Shown in pieces: positions 1,794 through 22,848 of a stretch of DNA of 24,541 bases. The notes beneath the pieces are model-generated. The model did not search any database. It was not told the DNA's origin and worked only from the letters and a program-made list of their open reading frames with translations. How positions within the stretch are numbered: position 1 is the first letter of the stretch; every line of letters starts with the position of its first letter. Made by a program: the position numbers and the translations under genes. Source of the DNA: a virus; the IMG/VR virus record IMGVR_UViG_3300027824_000019, positions 1 through 24,541 of that record. The stretch is one strand, 5' to 3'.

Positions 1794-4180
1794 TGGCCGG
1801 ATACCAGCCGTTAAAGATTACCGGAATGAAAACAGGGCTCGTCCAAGAGCGTGAAGAGTTCATCCTCCCCAATGACGCATATCCTGTTCTACAAAACGCC
1901 TATGTGTGGCGCGAGCGTATTCTACGCAAGCAAGGATATAGGCTTGTTGGAAGACTTCAACGAACTATAGGCACTACGGATGGATCAGGCAATCAATCAA
2001 TCACTATCGCACCCCTTCCAATCCAAATAGGGCTGGCTTCATTTGTCATAGGAACGGACATATTCAATGATCCGGGCGGAGCTAGCCCTGTGACACTTTT
2101 AACGAACAGCGCAGGCTCTGCAACGTTAGATCGGGCAACCGGCGTTTTGACAATCACGGGGTCAATACCAGCGACAGCCATCCAATATTTCCCCGGCCTT
2201 CCAGTTATGGGAATCAGGATTGAAGAGTTAGCAGATTCAGCGAACGACTTAACAGTAATATTTGATCAAAATTACGCGTACACATTCGATACGACAGCAA
2301 ACCAATATAAGGAATTCATCCCCGGCACAACATGGAACGCCAGCGCGCTTGGGGTATCAAGCACCCGATTCTTTTGGAGCACTAACTACTGGGTGAGTTC
2401 AACCACTATTCCTAATACGGGATCACCGGGCACTGCTTTTTTTACAACTTCCAATGTTAAGTTAATGTGGGTGACTAACAATTCAGGAGCAGACGTAACA
2501 CCCGATCCCATTCGGATCACAGATGGCACGACATGGGTTGATTTTAAGCCTCCCAATTTTGGGCAGATTGACACAACCAACTTTCTTGTGCAATGCCTGG
2601 CCCTTCTTCCTTATCGGGGTAGGATGGTAGCATTTAATACCTATGAAGGCCCCGCTCTTTCAGGTGCAACGCACTTTTACAATCGTATTCGCTGGTCAAC
2701 TATTGGCAACCCTTTCATAGCCTATAGCAATGCGGTTCCTCCAAATACCCCATCAAAAGGGTCCTGGAGAGATGACATTAGGGGACAAGGGGGATTTCTT
2801 GATATTCCCATCAACGAAGACATCATCTCCGTGGGCTATGTCCGCGACAATCTCGTTGTTTATTGCGAGAGAAGCACATGGCAACTAAGGTATACCGGAA
2901 GGTCTATTTCCCCTTTTCAGATCGAGAGGATCAACAGCGAATTGGGTGCACAAGGGCCTTTCTCTACCATTCAGTTTGACACCTCCCTTGTAGGGATCGG
3001 CGATAAGGGTATTGTAGAGTGCGATAGTTACAAGTCCGAATTGATCGATATCAAGATCCCTGATTTCGTTTATAAGTTCCAAGGTTCATCAAGTACGAAT
3101 GAATCCACTTATCGCGTACATGGCATTAGGGATTTCCAGAAAAGACTAGCGTACTGGACAATCCCAATTCAATCCCAATTTGACGGCAATTTATCGTCTG
3201 CAAATCAGATTTTTCCCAATACACGCCTGGTTTACAATTACGAAAATGATTCTTGGGCAACTTTTAACGATTCGCTCACAGTTTTGGGAACCTATCAGCC
3301 GCTCGAAGCTAGCCTTTCCTGGCTCGAAATTCCACAAACGTGGTTAGAGTGGCCCTACCCCTGGATCAACCAACCTGGGGGCGTTCCTTTGATTATAGCG
3401 GGCAACCAGCAGGGATTCATTGAGCAGTTAGACGGATTAGATACCAACGACGTAAGCCTTTTCATATCGAACCTTACACAAGGCACAACCGTCACGGTCA
3501 CCTCTCCTAATCACAACTTGACGACGCCGCAAAACGATTACAACGTAGATTATGTCATAGGCATTAGCGGTATTCCGACTGGATCCCCCTTCTCTAGTCT
3601 GAACGGCGGTATTTATGCCGTTGAGGTTATCGACGCCAACACCTTCAACATCTTTGGTTATGACATGGGCGATAACGTCTTTGATGTCGTTATAGTTGCC
3701 ACGCCAGCGGGAACATATCAAGGCGGTGGGCTAATCAACATAGCCGAAAACTTCTATGTCAACAGCAAGAAGTTCAACTTCCTAGATGAAGGGCAGAACA
3801 TCCAACTTGGGTATATAGACGTTTTGACGACCTCGGGAACCAATGCAGCGGCAGCTATAGCATTAAATGTGTTCTTGAACTACGACACACTCAATCCTTC
3901 CAACGTCTTACCAAACAACCTCATCAACAGCGTAACCGATCCAAACACAGCCGACGACTTTTTTAATACTGTCATTCCTCTAATACCTTCGGTTTATGCA
4001 GTAGCCCCAGAGGGAACAAAGTTTTGGCAAAGAGTTTATTGCGCCACACGTGCCAACTTCCTCACGATTCAATATTGCTTCACGAACGCACAAATGGCGA
4101 GCAACGCACAAGTTACAACCGTGCAACTAGACGCACAAATTTTATGGATTCGCAAAGCGGGCAGAATGACCCAGCTATAA
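1793..4180 (+). CDS. Large tail hub/nozzle-like protein (P22 gp10 / T7 gp12 type) with an FCCH-like insert (795 aa)
   Basis: ATG 1793 overlaps the previous stop by one base and is preferred to an in-frame ATG at 1769 inside the upstream gene. The protein is almost entirely beta. It has repeated Trp/Tyr-rich strands such as RLVYNYENDSWATF and LAYWTIPIQ and a central segment about residues 275-540 reading RMVAFNT, RIRWSTIG, DNLVVYCERSTWQLRY. This pattern is typical of the large propeller-like podovirus tail proteins that form the nozzle beneath the adaptor. Residues about 560-645 carry TVTVTSPNHNLTT, then GGIYAVEVIDANTFNIFG, which matches the FCCH-like beta module often found inside phage tail proteins. 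Its size, neighbours and lack of signal sequence fit. The exact family call is inference. Confidence 0.6.
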   Translation: MAGYQPLKITGMKTGLVQEREEFILPNDAYPVLQNAYVWRERILRKQGYRLVGRLQRTIGTTDGSGNQSITIAPLPIQIGLASFVIGTDIFNDPGGASPVTLLTNSAGSATLDRATGVLTITGSIPATAIQYFPGLPVMGIRIEELADSANDLTVIFDQNYAYTFDTTANQYKEFIPGTTWNASALGVSSTRFFWSTNYWVSSTTIPNTGSPGTAFFTTSNVKLMWVTNNSGADVTPDPIRITDGTTWVDFKPPNFGQIDTTNFLVQCLALLPYRGRMVAFNTYEGPALSGATHFYNRIRWSTIGNPFIAYSNAVPPNTPSKGSWRDDIRGQGGFLDIPINEDIISVGYVRDNLVVYCERSTWQLRYTGRSISPFQIERINSELGAQGPFSTIQFDTSLVGIGDKGIVECDSYKSELIDIKIPDFVYKFQGSSSTNESTYRVHGIRDFQKRLAYWTIPIQSQFDGNLSSANQIFPNTRLVYNYENDSWATFNDSLTVLGTYQPLEASLSWLEIPQTWLEWPYPWINQPGGVPLIIAGNQQGFIEQLDGLDTNDVSLFISNLTQGTTVTVTSPNHNLTTPQNDYNVDYVIGISGIPTGSPFSSLNGGIYAVEVIDANTFNIFGYDMGDNVFDVVIVATPAGTYQGGGLINIAENFYVNSKKFNFLDEGQNIQLGYIDVLTTSGTNAAAAIALNVFLNYDTLNPSNVLPNNLINSVTDPNTADDFFNTVIPLIPSVYAVAPEGTKFWQRVYCATRANFLTIQYCFTNAQMASNAQVTTVQLDAQILWIRKAGRMTQL

Positions 4181-17835: not shown

Positions 17836-18011
17836 CAGGGATGAAGGCGTATTTGAATAGGAGAAGAATAAGTTCCTTCCACTCGATGTATGTGTTCAAT
17901 GTGTAATTTGCCTCCTCTTAAAGGCAAAAGTTTTTCACAAGTAAATATCGAAATAAAGCAAAAGCAAATCGTAAATACAATGGATTTTCCGACAAAAATT
18001 GCTAGTGACAT
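17835..18011 (-). CDS. Small predicted membrane protein at the end of the recombination operon (58 aa)
   Basis: The start is put at ATG 18011 because GGAGG lies five bases upstream. An ATG 12 bases earlier would place that ribosome site inside the coding region. Residues 2-30 form a hydrophobic span with several Cys and Phe residues (MSLAIFVGKSIVFTICFCFI and onward). A short polar C-terminus follows (RGGKLHIEHIHRVEG). It overlaps the end of the nuclease gene by ten bases and stops at the edge of the convergent terminator. A single-span inner-membrane protein is likely; its function is unknown. Confidence 0.55.
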   Translation of the reverse strand: MSLAIFVGKSIVFTICFCFISIFTCEKLLPLRGGKLHIEHIHRVEGTYSSPIQIRLHP

Positions 18012-18865
18012 GTAATCCTCCAAGAGGTTGTTGTTGGTTTTCTAAATTGTTCTAGGTCTAAGTTTTTCAAAACAGGTATTTTCGTATAGTCTACATTGCC
18101 TTTCCTTTGATATGAACACAAGGATACACCTCCTCCCTTTGTGGCACATTCTCCACTTAAGAAAATGAGCTGCCTTCTTAGCTGTTCCTCTTCCTCTTCT
18201 AAGTCTTTCTTGGCTTGCTGTATCAATCTCCATTGTAAAGCATATCTTGACCATATGGGATCGTTCCTTTCGACGTAGTCGTTTTCTTCTGTTTCAGGAG
18301 GTATTTTATTCATCAAGCAATCATAAAACCTCTTTTCTTCTATAATCATTTTCTTGATGTATTCCTCATCCTTCTGGACTTCAACAATGACTCCGTCAGC
18401 ACCATCAAAGCTAAAATAATAGGCAAAAGAGACACCAGCAACATAAATCTGATGCTGTAACTGTGGATAATAATGGTCAGGCACTCGTCCTGATAAGGCT
18501 GTAGCATGGTCTTTTTCTCCAGGGCATTTTATTTCGATTATCTTTGTTCCGACTTCATTCATGCCGTCCAATGAAGCCATAACCCAATCTTTGACTAGGA
18601 CGACAGGTTTCATTGTAAGACGTGTTTTCATGTTGAACAGATCTCTAGCTATCGGCTCAAGATCTATTCCCCTTTGCATCCTTTCATTAGGTGGCATAGG
18701 GGGTTCATCCGAAAGCTTTTCATAATAAAGCTGGAGTTTTGTCTTCCAGGGATTGGCGCCCATTATGGAATTCGCATCCGTCGCCGTCACTTTTGTTTTT
18801 CTTAAAGCAAGCCATTCGTCACTTCCTTGGACTATATCTTCTAATATTTTTGCTGATGCTGTCAT
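18002..18865 (-). CDS. YqaJ / lambda exonuclease-family recombination nuclease (287 aa)
   Basis: Residues 12-40 (QGSDEWLALRKTKVTATDAN, then SIMGANPW) are the usual N-terminus of YqaJ-family nucleases. Residues 65-72 (RGIDLEPI) supply the conserved Glu. Residues 96-113 give the PD-(D/E)XK core: Asp100 in the MASLDGMN strand, then E111-I-K113. QHQ at 137-139 is the closing motif. Enzymes of this family degrade one strand of double-stranded DNA ends and hand single strands to an annealing protein, here the ERF protein two genes upstream. Residues 205-245 are a charged coiled helix specific to this protein. GAAGG precedes ATG 18865 with seven-base spacing. Confidence 0.88.
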   Translation of the reverse strand: MTASAKILEDIVQGSDEWLALRKTKVTATDANSIMGANPWKTKLQLYYEKLSDEPPMPPNERMQRGIDLEPIARDLFNMKTRLTMKPVVLVKDWVMASLDGMNEVGTKIIEIKCPGEKDHATALSGRVPDHYYPQLQHQIYVAGVSFAYYFSFDGADGVIVEVQKDEEYIKKMIIEEKRFYDCLMNKIPPETEENDYVERNDPIWSRYALQWRLIQQAKKDLEEEEEQLRRQLIFLSGECATKGGGVSLCSYQRKGNVDYTKIPVLKNLDLEQFRKPTTTSWRITCH

Positions 18866-19019
18866 AATTTAACCTTCTTTCCAAATACTCAATATGTTTA
18901 TTAAGCGCTATAACCTTGTTGGCGAGAATACCTGCGACAAAAGTCGCAGGACATTCTACAGTCTCGAGCCATTCGCTACTTTGCTCTTGAATTTCTCTGA
19001 TAATCTCTTCACCAGTCAT
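18819..19019 (-). CDS. Small helical protein between the annealing protein and nuclease genes (66 aa)
   Basis: ATG 19019 overlaps the stop of the ERF gene in an ATGA junction, which supports coupled translation. The product is helical, with EEIIREIQEQSSEWLETVEC at the start and NKHIEYLERRLNYDSISKNI near the end. The 47-base overlap with the nuclease start is long, so the last residues are less certain to matter. Small genes at this place in phage recombination operons sometimes encode partners of the annealing or nuclease protein, but no motif shows it here. Confidence 0.5.
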   Translation of the reverse strand: MTGEEIIREIQEQSSEWLETVECPATFVAGILANKVIALNKHIEYLERRLNYDSISKNIRRYSPRK

Positions 19020-19693
19020 CGGGCCTCCGCCAGAGACGCCTCTGTTTTAAATTCAACTCTCTGTGCCAAGTGGTTAGCCTCCATATTTTTTACCGCTGCC
19101 TCTTTCATTCTTTGGTACATTTCGCTTGGTAGGTCGGAAAGATTTTCGGTATTGTATTGTTTCTTGATGTGCGAGTAAACCCAAATTTTATATTGGGGTT
19201 CACATTCATCGAGCACATTTTTAAGGTCGTCGGCTTGCTCTTTGGATATCTTGGATATGGGGATAATAGCAGCGCTTGTTTTCTGCCTAAAAGGGGCTTG
19301 CGCTTTCTCTCCATCGTCATCTTCAGGAGCAACACCAACAAGAGCGGAAAGCGAATACCTACGAAAATAAGTAAGGGCCGATCCGGTTGTTTGGGGATCA
19401 TTCTTAGCTAAAGGAATGAGGACTTCACTTCTGATCCATTGGCCGCTTGCGTGACCCAATAGAGATATTAAGCAAAGGCCTTCTGGCTTCGTCTGTGGAA
19501 ATTGGATGATAGAAAGGCCATTATCGCTCAACGCGTCGCGGCAGGCGTCCCAAACGCTTGATAGGTCGGCATATTTGCTTTTGAAGAAGGGATTGGCTTT
19601 GTCTTTAGATGCTGGCTGGATCTTGCCTTGTGCCTTGGCTAAGGCTCCAAAGATCTCGTTAACATTTGGGCTCATTGTGGTTTCTAAATTCAT
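19016..19693 (-). CDS. erf: ERF-family single-strand annealing protein (225 aa)
   Basis: ATG 19693 is chosen because AGGAG sits four bases upstream. The core at residues 12-125 has VNEIFGALAKAQGKIQPASK, NPFFKSKYADLSSVWDACRD, then SIIQFPQ and the signature TGSALTYFRRYSLSALVGVA, typical of ERF proteins. A run of acidic residues (EDDDGEKA) follows. The C-terminal 95 residues are more variable, as in the family. ERF proteins anneal complementary single strands during phage recombination and genome circularisation. Together with the YqaJ nuclease two genes downstream, this forms a two-component recombination system. Confidence 0.9.
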   Translation of the reverse strand: MNLETTMSPNVNEIFGALAKAQGKIQPASKDKANPFFKSKYADLSSVWDACRDALSDNGLSIIQFPQTKPEGLCLISLLGHASGQWIRSEVLIPLAKNDPQTTGSALTYFRRYSLSALVGVAPEDDDGEKAQAPFRQKTSAAIIPISKISKEQADDLKNVLDECEPQYKIWVYSHIKKQYNTENLSDLPSEMYQRMKEAAVKNMEANHLAQRVEFKTEASLAEAR

Positions 19694-19824
19694 ATTGCTC
19701 CTGTGAACCATCCGGAAATTCCGGACAGTTGGTTAAGTTTTACTTTGCTAAAAACCAACCGCAGCAATATGATGATTGCCGCAGTGGCCTGATAAGTCTT
19801 GGCGGACTCCTTCTTTATGTTCAT
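19690..19824 (-). CDS. Short coupled gene between the leader gene and ERF (44 aa)
   Basis: The frame begins one base after the upstream stop (TGA C ATG) and ends in an ATGA overlap with the ERF start, the same junction style as the rest of the operon. The product has a basic N-terminus (MNIKKESAKTYQA) and a hydrophobic run (TAAIIILLRLVF) that could be a short membrane span or a buried helix. No strong ribosome site precedes it, so it would rely on coupling. An alternative reading is that it is a non-coding leader carrying the TCCGGA palindrome at 19711-19725. The exact stop/start fit favours a gene. Confidence 0.45.
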   Translation of the reverse strand: MNIKKESAKTYQATAAIIILLRLVFSKVKLNQLSGISGWFTGAI

Positions 19825-20238: not shown

Positions 20239-20261
20239 GTAGTCGAATGCAGGAGGTATTT

Positions 20262-20477
20262 ATGAATTTACGCGTTTATCTTGCTACAAAAAATATGAAG
20301 GTAAAAGAGTTTGGCAAGCTGATAGATTATGCTCCTTCCTATATTTCGGGTGTAATGACCGGTAATTTTAAGCCAGGAAAAAAATTTATCAAGACCATAG
20401 AAAAGGCTACCGACGGCAAGGTGATAATTTTAGATCCAGTGCCCGAAACGATAGAAGAAATACAGAAAACAGGATAA
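20262..20477 (+). CDS. Cro/CI-like HTH transcriptional regulator (71 aa)
   Basis: The start is ATG 20262, since AGGAGG lies five bases upstream. An ATG at 20247 would put this site inside the gene. Residues 12-36 (MKVKEFGKLIDYAPSYISGV, then MTGNFKPG) match the XRE helix-turn-helix: helix 2 VKEFGKLI, turn DYAP, recognition helix SYISGVMTG, and the Phe-Lys-Pro that follows in many members. At 71 residues it is the size of Cro-type repressors and lacks the CI cleavage domain. It sits across a double promoter from the recombination operon, the classical position for a switch regulator. Operator sites could not be settled. Confidence 0.75.
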   Translation: MNLRVYLATKNMKVKEFGKLIDYAPSYISGVMTGNFKPGKKFIKTIEKATDGKVIILDPVPETIEEIQKTG

Positions 20478-20621
20478 GAAAAGGCAGATTATAAGGGCGA
20501 TTCTTTTGGGAGATTTCGGAACTTTAAACCATCCCGAACTCTTTATGTGAGAAAAAGCAAAAACATAAGGATGGTAAGTGATATCCCAATAAAGCTCATC
20601 ATCACCAAAAAGTCCGTCCAT
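20430..20621 (-). CDS. Possible small membrane protein on the - strand (63 aa)
   Basis: ATG 20621 follows AAGGTGG with eight-base spacing. The product has a polar front (MDGLFGDDELYWDITYHPYV) and a C-terminal hydrophobic span (RIALIICLFLSCFLYFFYRF) preceded by Lys/Arg. Its last 48 bases run antisense to the end of the HTH regulator gene, and no good promoter is visible. It fills most of the otherwise empty interval 20478-20750, so it is either a real small membrane gene (possibly an exclusion-type protein) or a chance frame. Confidence 0.35.
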   Translation of the reverse strand: MDGLFGDDELYWDITYHPYVFAFSHIKSSGWFKVPKSPKRIALIICLFLSCFLYFFYRFGHWI

Positions 20622-20750
20622 GACATATGCCACCTTTTTGTCATAGGTAACTTATCAAGCTTTTATTGACAACAGATATTTTTAAATAAAAATCTTCTTG
20701 TCCGGATTGGCCTTGATAGGATAAATATACGCTATCCAAAAAAGGAGCCT
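20622..20750. promoter_or_regulatory. AT-rich upstream region of the replication module
   Basis: A TTGACA at 20666-20671 lacks a good -10 element at normal spacing. TTGTCC at 20698-20703 with TAAATA 18 bases later (20722-20727) is a more usable + strand pair, pointing at the gene starting 20754. GGATA and TATCC arms flank AATATACGC at 20719-20737 and could be an operator overlapping this promoter. All are by-eye matches of limited strength. Confidence 0.35.
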
Positions 20751-20753
20751 ATG

Positions 20754-21035
20754 ATGATCCGCCAAGATTTTTCAGACCTGCCGCCTAGATATTTTCTTAT
20801 GCTTGCAATGGATAAGTTAGCAAAGATCTATTGCTTCCTGTGGGATAAGAAAGATGATCTAAACCGTGTATGTTTTACTTGGAACGACCTAACCAGGTAT
20901 TACAACAAAAACTCTTTTCGTACGAATCTTCGAAAGCTCAACGATGGAGGGCTATTGAATTACGATGAGAACGAAGAGGGCATAGCAATCGAATTGACAA
21001 GCTGGGAAGATATCGACAACGAATTCGAGGATTAA
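20754..21035 (+). CDS. Small winged-helix-like protein heading the replication module (93 aa)
   Basis: AAGGAG lies six bases before ATG 20754. An adjacent ATG at 20751 is closer to the site than usual, so the true start could be either. Residues 20-75 (KIYCFLWDKKDDLNRVCFTW, then NDLTRYYNKNSFRTNLRKLN, then DGGLLNYDENEEG) have the order helix, strand, HTH and beta-wing of a small winged-helix DNA-binding protein. The C-terminus is acidic (SWEDIDNEFED). In this position it may regulate the replication genes or assist the initiator. There is no closer family assignment. Confidence 0.6.
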   Translation: MIRQDFSDLPPRYFLMLAMDKLAKIYCFLWDKKDDLNRVCFTWNDLTRYYNKNSFRTNLRKLNDGGLLNYDENEEGIAIELTSWEDIDNEFED

Positions 21036-21039
21036 AAAT

Positions 21040-21092
21040 CTGCCAGGTGAGTTTCGGTGGTGAAAGCACCTGGCAGTAAATCCGAAGATTTA
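21040..21092 (+). ncRNA. Two adjacent perfect hairpins upstream of the initiator gene
   Basis: The perfect 10-bp arms CTGCCAGGTG (21040-21049) and CACCTGGCAG (21067-21076) enclose a loop that itself can pair TTTC with GAAA around GGTGGT. Immediately after comes TAAATC-CGAA-GATTTA (21077-21092), a perfect six-bp stem with a four-base loop. No U-run follows, so this is not an intrinsic terminator. It begins five bases after the preceding gene and could be an RNA element or a DNA cruciform. No known RNA class is recognised. Confidence 0.4.
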
Positions 21093-21180
21093 AGGGTTAT
21101 CTCGGCAAAGATGGATTAAGAATAATGAAAATCTGTCTTGATGTCAATGATTTGAAGTGTTAAGGTCTCAGAAAGTGAAA

Positions 21181-21204
21181 AACCCCACTCGCTAAAGTGG
21201 GGTT
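21181..21204 (-). terminator. Hairpin with - strand U-tract
   Basis: The arms AACCCCACT and AGTGGGGTT pair perfectly around a six-base loop. Read on the - strand the right arm runs into TTTTTC, which is a reasonable intrinsic terminator. On the + strand there is no U-tract. No - strand gene is seen just upstream, so it would stop antisense transcription of the initiator gene or an unrecognised RNA. Confidence 0.45.
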
Positions 21205-21263
21205 CTCGGAAACCAAAAAACTCGTCGTGGATGACTTGCTTAAAAGATACCAAGGTTTCCGAG
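21205..21263. repeat. Perfect 10-bp inverted repeat flanking 39 bases
   Basis: CTCGGAAACC at 21205-21214 and GGTTTCCGAG at 21254-21263 are exact inverted copies. The left arm starts directly after the preceding hairpin, and GGTT at 21201-21204 can alternatively pair with AACC at 21211-21214. The element could therefore switch between two folds. It ends 26 bases before the initiator start codon. Confidence 0.5.
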
Positions 21264-21289
21264 TTTAATGCAACAGCAAAAACAAGGAA

Positions 21290-22267
21290 ATGTCAAAAAT
21301 GTCCCAAAAAGTCTTTGGTTACTCTCATAGCTTTGATGTTCGCATAGCTAAAATCACCGGCAGCCTTGAAGCAGCCCTTCTTTTCAATCACATTGTCTTT
21401 TGGGTTGTACACAACAAAGCCCATGAAAAAAACCTTATTGAGGGAAGAACTTGGACCTTCCAAACGCTTTCTCAGATTGCAAAACAATTGGATTACCTCA
21501 GTGAAAAGCAGATAAAATATGCTCTCGCCAAGCTTGTTGATCAAGGGTTTATTATAAAAGGAAAATTTAATAAAAGCGCTTTTGATCACACCCCTTGGTA
21601 TGCTCTACCCGATGAGTCGATATTGGGATATTCAAATAATTCTTACGTTGGGACAAATTTGTCCCAACGACAGGACACTTCTGTCCCAACCACGAGCCAA
21701 AATTGTCCCGACTATATAGGAGAAGATACTAAAAAGAAGATACTGAAAGAAGATACTAAAGTTATCTTGTCCGAACATGCGTTCGGCCTCGCCTCTTTTT
21801 TTCTCTCTCTCTTGAAGAATAACAATCCAAGTATCAAAGAGCCTAATCTTGAAGCTTGGGCAAAAGAACTGGACAGGATGATCCGAATCGACAAGAGGGA
21901 CTCGCAAGAGATTCGCCATCTGATGACCTGGGCGACCGCAGACCCTTTTTGGCACAAAAACATTTTAAGCCCAGCAAACCTTCGGAAGCATTTCGACAGG
22001 CTTTTGCTGGAATCTACACAGAAAAGATCTGAGCCGTTCAAGGGCCGAAACGCTACCTACACACCACCCACCCCCGAACAGGCGCAGGAAGAGGACTTAA
22101 AACGCGAAATTAAGCCAGCGGAACCGATGCCGTTAGATCAAAGATTGTCAAACATGAAATTATGGTTTCCGGATGCCGAATGGTTAGAGCGCACCGAAAA
22201 GATAAAAAAATCCTACGAAAAAGAAGTTAAGGAGTATGAAAAAAGATGGAACGTGAAGCTTACTTAA
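21290..22267 (+). CDS. Replication initiator, lambda O / DnaD-like (325 aa)
   Basis: AAGGA lies just before ATG 21290. An in-frame ATG at 21299 is an alternative start with more normal spacing. Residues about 53-107 (RTWTFQTLSQIAKQLDYLSE, then KQIKYALAKLVDQGFIIKGK) form a winged-helix DNA-binding domain. Residues about 110-165 are a polar linker whose DNA contains the probable origin. Residues about 170-245 (AWAKELDRMIRIDKRDSQEI, then WATADPFWHKNILSPANLRK) resemble the C-terminal helical region of phage initiators that contact the helicase loader. The C-terminal end is a charged helix. Gene order (initiator then DnaC-like loader) supports the role. It overlaps the loader gene by 22 bases. Confidence 0.75.
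   Translation: MSKMSQKVFGYSHSFDVRIAKITGSLEAALLFNHIVFWVVHNKAHEKNLIEGRTWTFQTLSQIAKQLDYLSEKQIKYALAKLVDQGFIIKGKFNKSAFDHTPWYALPDESILGYSNNSYVGTNLSQRQDTSVPTTSQNCPDYIGEDTKKKILKEDTKVILSEHAFGLASFFLSLLKNNNPSIKEPNLEAWAKELDRMIRIDKRDSQEIRHLMTWATADPFWHKNILSPANLRKHFDRLLLESTQKRSEPFKGRNATYTPPTPEQAQEEDLKREIKPAEPMPLDQRLSNMKLWFPDAEWLERTEKIKKSYEKEVKEYEKRWNVKLT
21646..21786. other. Probable phage replication origin with 22-bp iterons inside the initiator gene
   Basis: TGTCCCAAC at 21660 and 21682 and TGTCCCGAC at 21704 are spaced exactly 22 bases apart. The first lies in a perfect 24-bp palindrome at 21646-21669 with half-site CGTTGGGACAAA. The second is flanked by an inverted GGACA at 21673. Then comes an A-rich, purine-rich stretch with AGAAGATACT at 21721, 21735 and 21748, followed by the inverted repeat CCGAAC-ATGC-GTTCGG at 21771-21786. 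Iterons, an easily melted AT-rich region and an inverted repeat inside the initiator gene match the layout of lambda ori. The sequence itself is unrelated to lambda iterons. Confidence 0.7.
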
Positions 22268-22848
22268 AGCAAAGTAGAAAAGGGATTGACCCACTCAAAG
22301 CTTTCGGATTTACTAACGGGGACAGAGATTCGAATTCTAGATATTATTCAGCAAATCTAGGAGATTGGAGGGCTAGTCCTGAAAGCCAGAAGAAGGTTAA
22401 TGAATGGCTTAAAAAACCAAGCAACTTTTTGGTCTATTTGGGAAATAGGGGAGTGGGAAAAACGTACTTTTTATGTGCCTTGATATGGTGGCTTTGGGAA
22501 AAGGGCGATGAGGTCTTTGCTATACGCTCACATGATTATTTTAATCACATACAGCAAGATATAAGCGAAGGCAAAAACCAATTTAACCAGAACATTAAGC
22601 TATCCGACCAGGCATTTTTGATCATTGACGACTTGGGAGCAACTACAAATACAGATTGGCAACAAAAAATGATCGGAGACCTCTTAGATCAGAGATATAA
22701 TTCTCGCATTCCTACGGTCGTCACCTCTAACCTTTCCCTCAAAGACATGGAAAAAGGATTAGGGTTTAGAACCGCCGATAGGCTTAGCGCATCCGAAAAC
22801 CTAATCATACAAGATTGGACTGATAGCAAACGCCAACAAGGAATGTAG
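22246..22848 (+). CDS. DnaC-like AAA+ helicase loader (200 aa)
   Basis: The start ATG 22246 lies inside the end of the initiator gene. Residues 66-73 (GNRGVGKT) are a Walker A motif. Residues 125-129 (LIIDD) are Walker B, followed by LGAT. Residues 157-162 (TVVTSN) are the sensor-1 strand, and RTADRL at about 175-180 supplies the arginine expected of DnaC/IstB-type ATPases. Such proteins deliver the replicative helicase to an origin opened by the initiator. The length of 200 residues is short for host DnaC but normal for phage loaders. No strong ribosome site is seen, so coupling to the initiator is likely. Confidence 0.85.
   Translation: MEREAYLKQSRKGIDPLKAFGFTNGDRDSNSRYYSANLGDWRASPESQKKVNEWLKKPSNFLVYLGNRGVGKTYFLCALIWWLWEKGDEVFAIRSHDYFNHIQQDISEGKNQFNQNIKLSDQAFLIIDDLGATTNTDWQQKMIGDLLDQRYNSRIPTVVTSNLSLKDMEKGLGFRTADRLSASENLIIQDWTDSKRQQGM

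Follow-up and report, generated by a model that had tools for sequence, protein, structure and literature searches.

A probable theta-type replication origin embedded in a phage initiator gene, and the 22-bp iterons of its relatives

To our knowledge, the replication origin is unmapped in most sequenced phages. The 24,541-bp virus record IMGVR_UViG_3300027824_000019 (positions 1 to 24,541; hereinafter the window, that is, the whole stretch of DNA analyzed) contains an initiator gene with short repeats packed into its middle part, and the question this locus raises is whether these repeats constitute the origin. Our answer, to which we assign a probability of roughly 0.9, is that the segment 21645-21760 is a theta-type origin of replication lying within the gene for its own initiator. 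This reading is based on three computational observations, namely the family-wide conservation of the 22-bp spacing, the covariation of the repeats with the recognition helix of the initiator and the constraint on the downstream element at the DNA level; computation also places the repeats within an interdomain linker.

Organization of the initiator gene and its surroundings

The initiator gene (21290-22267, plus strand) encodes an O-like protein of 325 amino acids, as indicated by phrog matches, BLASTP and the AlphaFold model, and its end overlaps the start of a plus-strand gene for a DnaC-like helicase loader (22246-22848; phrog_50, E 7e-31; IstB_IS21). Residues 12-115 of the initiator form a winged helix that matches phrog_11233 (E 1e-27, residues 13-116), with blocks within residues 11-110 modeled by AlphaFold at pLDDT 84-98, whereas residues from about 163 to 265 comprise a lambda-O-like C-terminal domain (phrog_2514, phrog_391 and phrog_277; BLASTP to lambda O, 168-247, with 31% identity over 80 aa and E 2e-13). 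Between the two domains lies a disordered linker (residues 116-157; pLDDT below 50 in the AlphaFold model), the coding DNA of which, 21635-21760, coincides exactly with the repeats. The location of the iterons between the winged-helix and C-terminal parts of the initiator, with a loader gene next, had been proposed from the DNA alone and is borne out by the AlphaFold and phrog results. Judging by these matches, the protein is a phrog_11233 winged helix joined to a putative loader-recruiting domain of the lambda O type. Neither BLASTP nor hhalign detected similarity between the winged helix and lambda O, hhalign showed no sequence homology to the pSK41 Rep protein, Pfam gave no match to the RepA_N domain (PF06970) in the initiator at E 0.1, and a sequence search of solved structures returned nothing credible. 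The Foldseek matches of the winged helix, including 4pql, 4pt7, 5kbj and 2v79, are all weak (E 0.02-0.1); such weak fold matches include the N-terminal domains of RepA_N initiators and DnaD. When viral and genome contigs were scanned with the single sequence, no close relative of the initiator emerged.

The coordinates given in the preliminary description all hold on rereading of the sequence. Three TGTCCC(A/G)AC cores, TGTCCCAAC at 21660 and 21682 and TGTCCCGAC at 21704, follow each other at distances of 22 and 22 bp, and the first of them is contained in CGTTGGGACAAATTTGTCCCAACG (21646-21669), a 24-bp palindrome that is the sole perfect palindrome of at least 20 bp in the whole 24.5 kb. In the register of the family, the three 22-bp iterons, all on the plus strand, occupy positions 21645-21666 (part of the palindrome), 21667-21688 (with the dyad GGACA-CTTC-TGTCC at 21673-21686) and 21689-21710 (AGCCAAAATTGTCCCG), or nucleotides 356-421 of the initiator gene; the dyad score of these units is 0.87, and their axis is one base off the family dyad axis. 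When the codons of the same protein were resampled synonymously, the three-copy score was reached in 1 of 300 trials and a palindrome with 12-bp arms in 0 of 300. The iterons are followed by ACTATATAGG (21711-21720, plus strand) and by an AT-rich purine stretch (21721-21760, plus strand) with three AGAAGATACT(A/G)AA repeats, in which the AGAAGATACT copies start at 21721, 21735 and 21748. The respective spacings of 14 and 13 bp shift the frame, and the middle copy is indeed in another reading frame, as had been noticed before. The G+C content of 21711-21770 is 27% by direct count, and the stretch 21721-21760 is likely to be the unwinding element. Farther downstream, the distance of a degenerate TGTCCGAAC at 21768 to the third core (21704) is 64 bp, which does not fit the phase of the iterons, and an inverted repeat read directly from the DNA, CCGAAC-ATGC-GTTCGG (21771-21786, with no strand assigned), is a further candidate element.

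Immediately upstream of the gene, a 254-bp intergenic stretch (21036-21289) holds three inverted repeats, CTGCCAGGTG (21040-21049/21067-21076), AACCCCACT (21181-21189/21196-21204) and CTCGGAAACC (21205-21214/21254-21263); it has no Rfam match, nor does any other part of the window, and may be regulatory. Promoter and terminator signals in 20500-22400 are no richer than in shuffled sequences, and the GC skew of this contig, a linear fragment, shows no clear switch at the candidate origin. The window also encodes, on the opposite strand, a YqaJ-type exonuclease (18002-18865) and an ERF single-strand annealing protein (19016-19711), which together represent a phage recombination pair. A 76-aa protein (20247-20477) matches phage transcriptional repressors (phrog_35, E 7e-6), which suggests that the phage is temperate.

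Spacing and downstream element among relatives

A comparison of related phages for conservation of the spacing beyond that of the codons had been proposed in the preliminary description. The relatives were collected from 80 viral loci and annotated phages by their winged-helix domains, which are 34-48% identical to that of the window, and 68 of them are non-redundant in the linker (window excluded). In the 130 bp past the winged-helix end motif, where the best 12-nt self-match at each lag was compared with codon shuffles, the signal at lag 22 is strong (z = 28), with further peaks at lag 44 (z = 16.7) and lag 12 (z = 10) and no excess at lags 20 and 25. At least 10 of 12 matches at lag 22 are present in 60% of the relatives vs about 0% of the shuffles, and outside the linker the signal is seen in 0% of the relatives in winged-helix coding DNA and in 1-4% further downstream. 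A period of 22 is not divisible by 3, which means that repetition in the protein cannot cause this signal. Under a wider criterion, the period is 22 in 40 of the 68 relatives, 23 in 1 and 24 in 12, with no strong repeat in the other 15. With ACCTATACC as the anchor, units from 41 phages, one of which is the window, can be aligned in a common register, AT(G/C)(G/C)A-half-site-AAAA-half-site-A, with a single dyad axis at which complementarity is 0.60, compared to 0.09-0.42 at other positions. The window fits this family of phrog_11233 initiators, as it has the winged helix and, in the linker, two or more dyad-symmetric repeats at a distance of 22 bp; the 22-bp iterons, initially described as novel, are typical of the whole family and not peculiar to the window phage. 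Longer arrays were observed in two loci, one with at least six units in a 44-bp higher-order pattern (L052) and the other with a 44-bp duplicated block (L035), which suggests that they arose by unequal recombination.

In the relatives, a shared junction, ACCTATACC, is followed by repeated units of CAGATATAAA or CAGATACTAAA, and conservation of this AT-rich downstream element, ACCTATACCAGATATAAACACAGATATAA, is seen at the DNA level. The version in the window has diverged: where the family has a ACCTATACCAGATA-type junction followed by GATA repeats, it shows ACTATATAGG and three copies of AGAAGATACT, and the repeat unit is 13-14 bp long as opposed to 12 bp in most relatives. By position-wise correspondence, ACTATATAGG appears to be the counterpart of the family junction element ACCTATACCA, and the stretch 21721-21760 that of the CAGATATAAA or CAGATACTAAA repeats. 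The diverged stretch retains GATACTAAA repeats, as does a relative with CAGATACTAAA repeats (L054). Inside the downstream element of the relatives, 77 of 85 isoleucine codons are ATA, compared to 221 of 612 in the remainder of these genes (odds ratio 17, p 1e-22, relatedness being ignored), and 57 of 57 aspartate codons are GAT (relatedness again ignored). Such strong codon bias implies selection on the DNA of this element, beyond the encoded peptide. A DNA-only search with an exact 29-mer of the element retrieved 16 viral contigs and 8 contigs of bacterial genomes, with titles naming Acetobacterium, Psychrobacter, Eubacterium and spirochaete, Robiginitomaculum and Patescibacteria MAGs, where the MAG labels may belong to misbinned prophage contigs. 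In 24 of 24 contigs, which represent several phyla by label, the 29-mer lies in such a linker, in frame after the D.T.WY winged-helix motif, and in nearly all of them it is preceded by 22-bp repeats, the exceptions being L113 (8/22) and L118 (10/22). In the former, a Patescibacteria MAG contig, the exact 29-mer (3085-3113) is located in the linker of a winged-helix initiator, and the upstream repeats are without the 22-bp period.

These data bear on the possibility that the repeats simply reflect a repetitive linker of low complexity in the protein, as its predicted disorder and richness in lysine and aspartate might indicate. We consider this explanation almost certainly wrong given that both the 22-bp and the 13/14-bp spacings shift the reading frame, that synonymous resampling fails to yield either the repeats or the palindrome, and that the relatives show strong synonymous codon bias.

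An additional iteron-like site, TGTCCCAAA, is found by its PWM match at the start of the gene (21300-21308, plus strand), and autoregulation had been suggested as its role. Within the contig, no other off-origin site matches the iteron matrix of the window better; however, gene-start sites are not enriched in the relatives (8 of 37 vs 5.2 expected), and an autoregulation site is possible for the window phage only. The same best off-origin site, along with the fact that operators are typically palindromic, could be taken to mean that the repeats serve as operators through which the initiator operon is autoregulated, or as a transcription or attenuation element, and that there is no origin here. 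Yet the sites lie 360-420 nt within the gene, their counterparts at gene starts are not enriched in the relatives, the conserved AT-rich repeat element is always on the same side, after the iterons, and embedded iterons function as origins in lambda, SPP1 and pSK41 (PMC7466680, PMC6316719, PMC5703833), which makes this reading very unlikely. Even less likely, in our view, is a scenario in which the embedded iterons bind the initiator mainly for replication control or incompatibility (titration) and initiation takes place chiefly elsewhere, for example, in the intergenic stretch 21036-21289 with its hairpins. Several inverted repeats are indeed present there, and a second origin located away from the gene is known from SPP1 (PMC6316719), but the intergenic stretch is without an iteron-like array, and the order of iterons and AT-rich element that is conserved here is the usual functional order of known origins.

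Half-sites, recognition helix and module composition

If, as we prefer, the repeats are an origin read by the product of the surrounding gene, the half-sites and the DNA-binding domain are of particular interest. The half-site letters differ between phages, and the association of half-site composition with columns of the winged-helix alignment is by far the strongest at window residue 73, followed by residue 76. After overall domain similarity was regressed out and the set thinned at 70% identity, K73 (z 7.5) and K76 (z 3.9) are at the top of 85 columns, the correction for phylogeny being partial and the sample comprising 41 phages; with thinning at 55% (14 sequences), residues 74, 76 and 73 are on top. 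All three residues are inside the recognition helix (residues 72-84; 21503-21541, plus strand) predicted from the AlphaFold model and the covariation. At position 73, lysine is paired with GGGC, arginine with TGTC and histidine with TGCA; the window has Lys-73 but the half-site TGTCC, a minority type in the lysine group. The covariation at the recognition helix makes the specificity of initiator for origin directly testable.

The phrog_11233 winged helix is present in 49 of 49 members of the family, whereas the C-terminal families of the lambda O type seen in the window occur in only 2-3 of the 49, which indicates that the iterons belong with the winged helix. Initiators of this kind include those of the cultivated Lactobacillus phage phiLdb and Bacteroides phage B124-14 and of BcepMigl, the elemo phages and Vibrio 1.091; they have the winged helix and the 22-bp linker layout in common with the window but differ in the half-site letters and mostly in the C-terminal domains. 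Evidently, the lambda-O-type C-terminal domain and the part comprising the DNA-binding domain and the origin are separate, exchangeable modules. In Ld25A (L012, 1965-2306) and UZM3 (L007, 214-534), stand-alone short winged-helix proteins of the same or a related family adjoin the initiator gene; one of them, UZM3_60, carries the annotation of a replication initiation protein, and they are possibly paralogous regulators or split initiators.

For the phrog_11233 family, a simple rule, the winged-helix motif D.T.WY followed by 22-bp dyads and then by ACCTATACCAGATA repeats, would make the origin readable from sequence in uncultivated phages. A broader proposal, which we advance tentatively and at somewhat less than even odds, is that phages of several bacterial phyla share a portable origin module consisting of the winged helix, 22-bp iterons and a near-invariant AT-rich element of 12-mers in the linker, with freely swapped C-terminal loader-recruiting domains. 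A code at position 73 relating amino acid to bases (K/GGGC, R/TGTC, H/TGCA) would tie each initiator to its own origin, and the AT-rich element would be a sequence-specific site of unwinding or single-strand binding, not merely AT-rich DNA.

Proposed mechanism and comparison with known origins

From the arrangement described above, we infer that binding, melting, loader recruitment and the start of replication all involve this locus. The winged helix of the initiator would read the 22-bp iterons via its recognition helix, with each dyad probably occupied by a dimer. With three in-phase units occupied, each about two helical turns long, the DNA could bend and the downstream AT-rich repeats open, upon which the lambda-O-like C-terminal domain might recruit the adjoining DnaC-like loader and thereby place the host helicase. 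The linker peptide encoded by the origin would act as a flexible tether, its sequence dictated by the DNA.

The preliminary description had called this a lambda-type origin, and the likeness is sound in part. In lambda as in the window, iterons followed by an AT-rich tract lie in the middle of the initiator gene (nucleotides 349-433 of gene O and 356-421 of the window gene, respectively), the C-terminal domains of the two initiators are homologous, and a loader gene comes next. The comparison fails for the N-terminal DNA-binding domain of lambda O, which belongs to another family than the winged helix of the window, for the loader, which is a DnaC-like AAA+ protein and not a homologue of lambda P, and for the spacing, which is irregular in lambda (20, 24 and 23) as opposed to exactly 22 in the window. 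The origins of RepA_N plasmids are an equally close model. These are located inside rep, between the N-terminal DNA-binding and C-terminal domains, with four Rep boxes in the rep gene of pSK41 (PMC5703833), and their iterons are described as semi-palindromes that converge on a poly-A tract (PMC7145576). What the window has in common with pSK41, pTZ2162 and the PLE RepA is the position of the probable origin, inside the initiator gene and between its two domains, and the dyads of the window, centered on AAATTT, CTTC and AAAATT, agree with the description of dyads converging on poly-A. The layout of pSK41 rep, tandem TGTCAAAAGGACA units followed by GATACT repeats, also resembles that of the window, although the period is 23 instead of 22. 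RepA_N elements further differ in being plasmid replicons with another C-terminal domain and no sequence similarity to the window, which has no Pfam RepA_N match. In the literature searched, coverage of which was limited so that priority is not established, we found no description of a phage family in which exact 22-bp iterons occur together with an AT-rich element that is near-invariant and a recognition helix that covaries. In SPP1 (gp38 and oriL) and in the lactococcal phages TP901-1 (ORF13) and Tuc2009 (Rep2009), the initiator binds direct repeats in its own gene, and SPP1 oriL also has an AT-rich unwinding element (PMC6316719, PMC8965321); judged from these descriptions alone, the likeness to the window consists of the gene-embedded repeats and, for SPP1, the AT-rich element. 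Given the embedded origins of lambda, RepA_N plasmids, SPP1 and lactococcal phages, the kind of origin proposed here for the window is already known.
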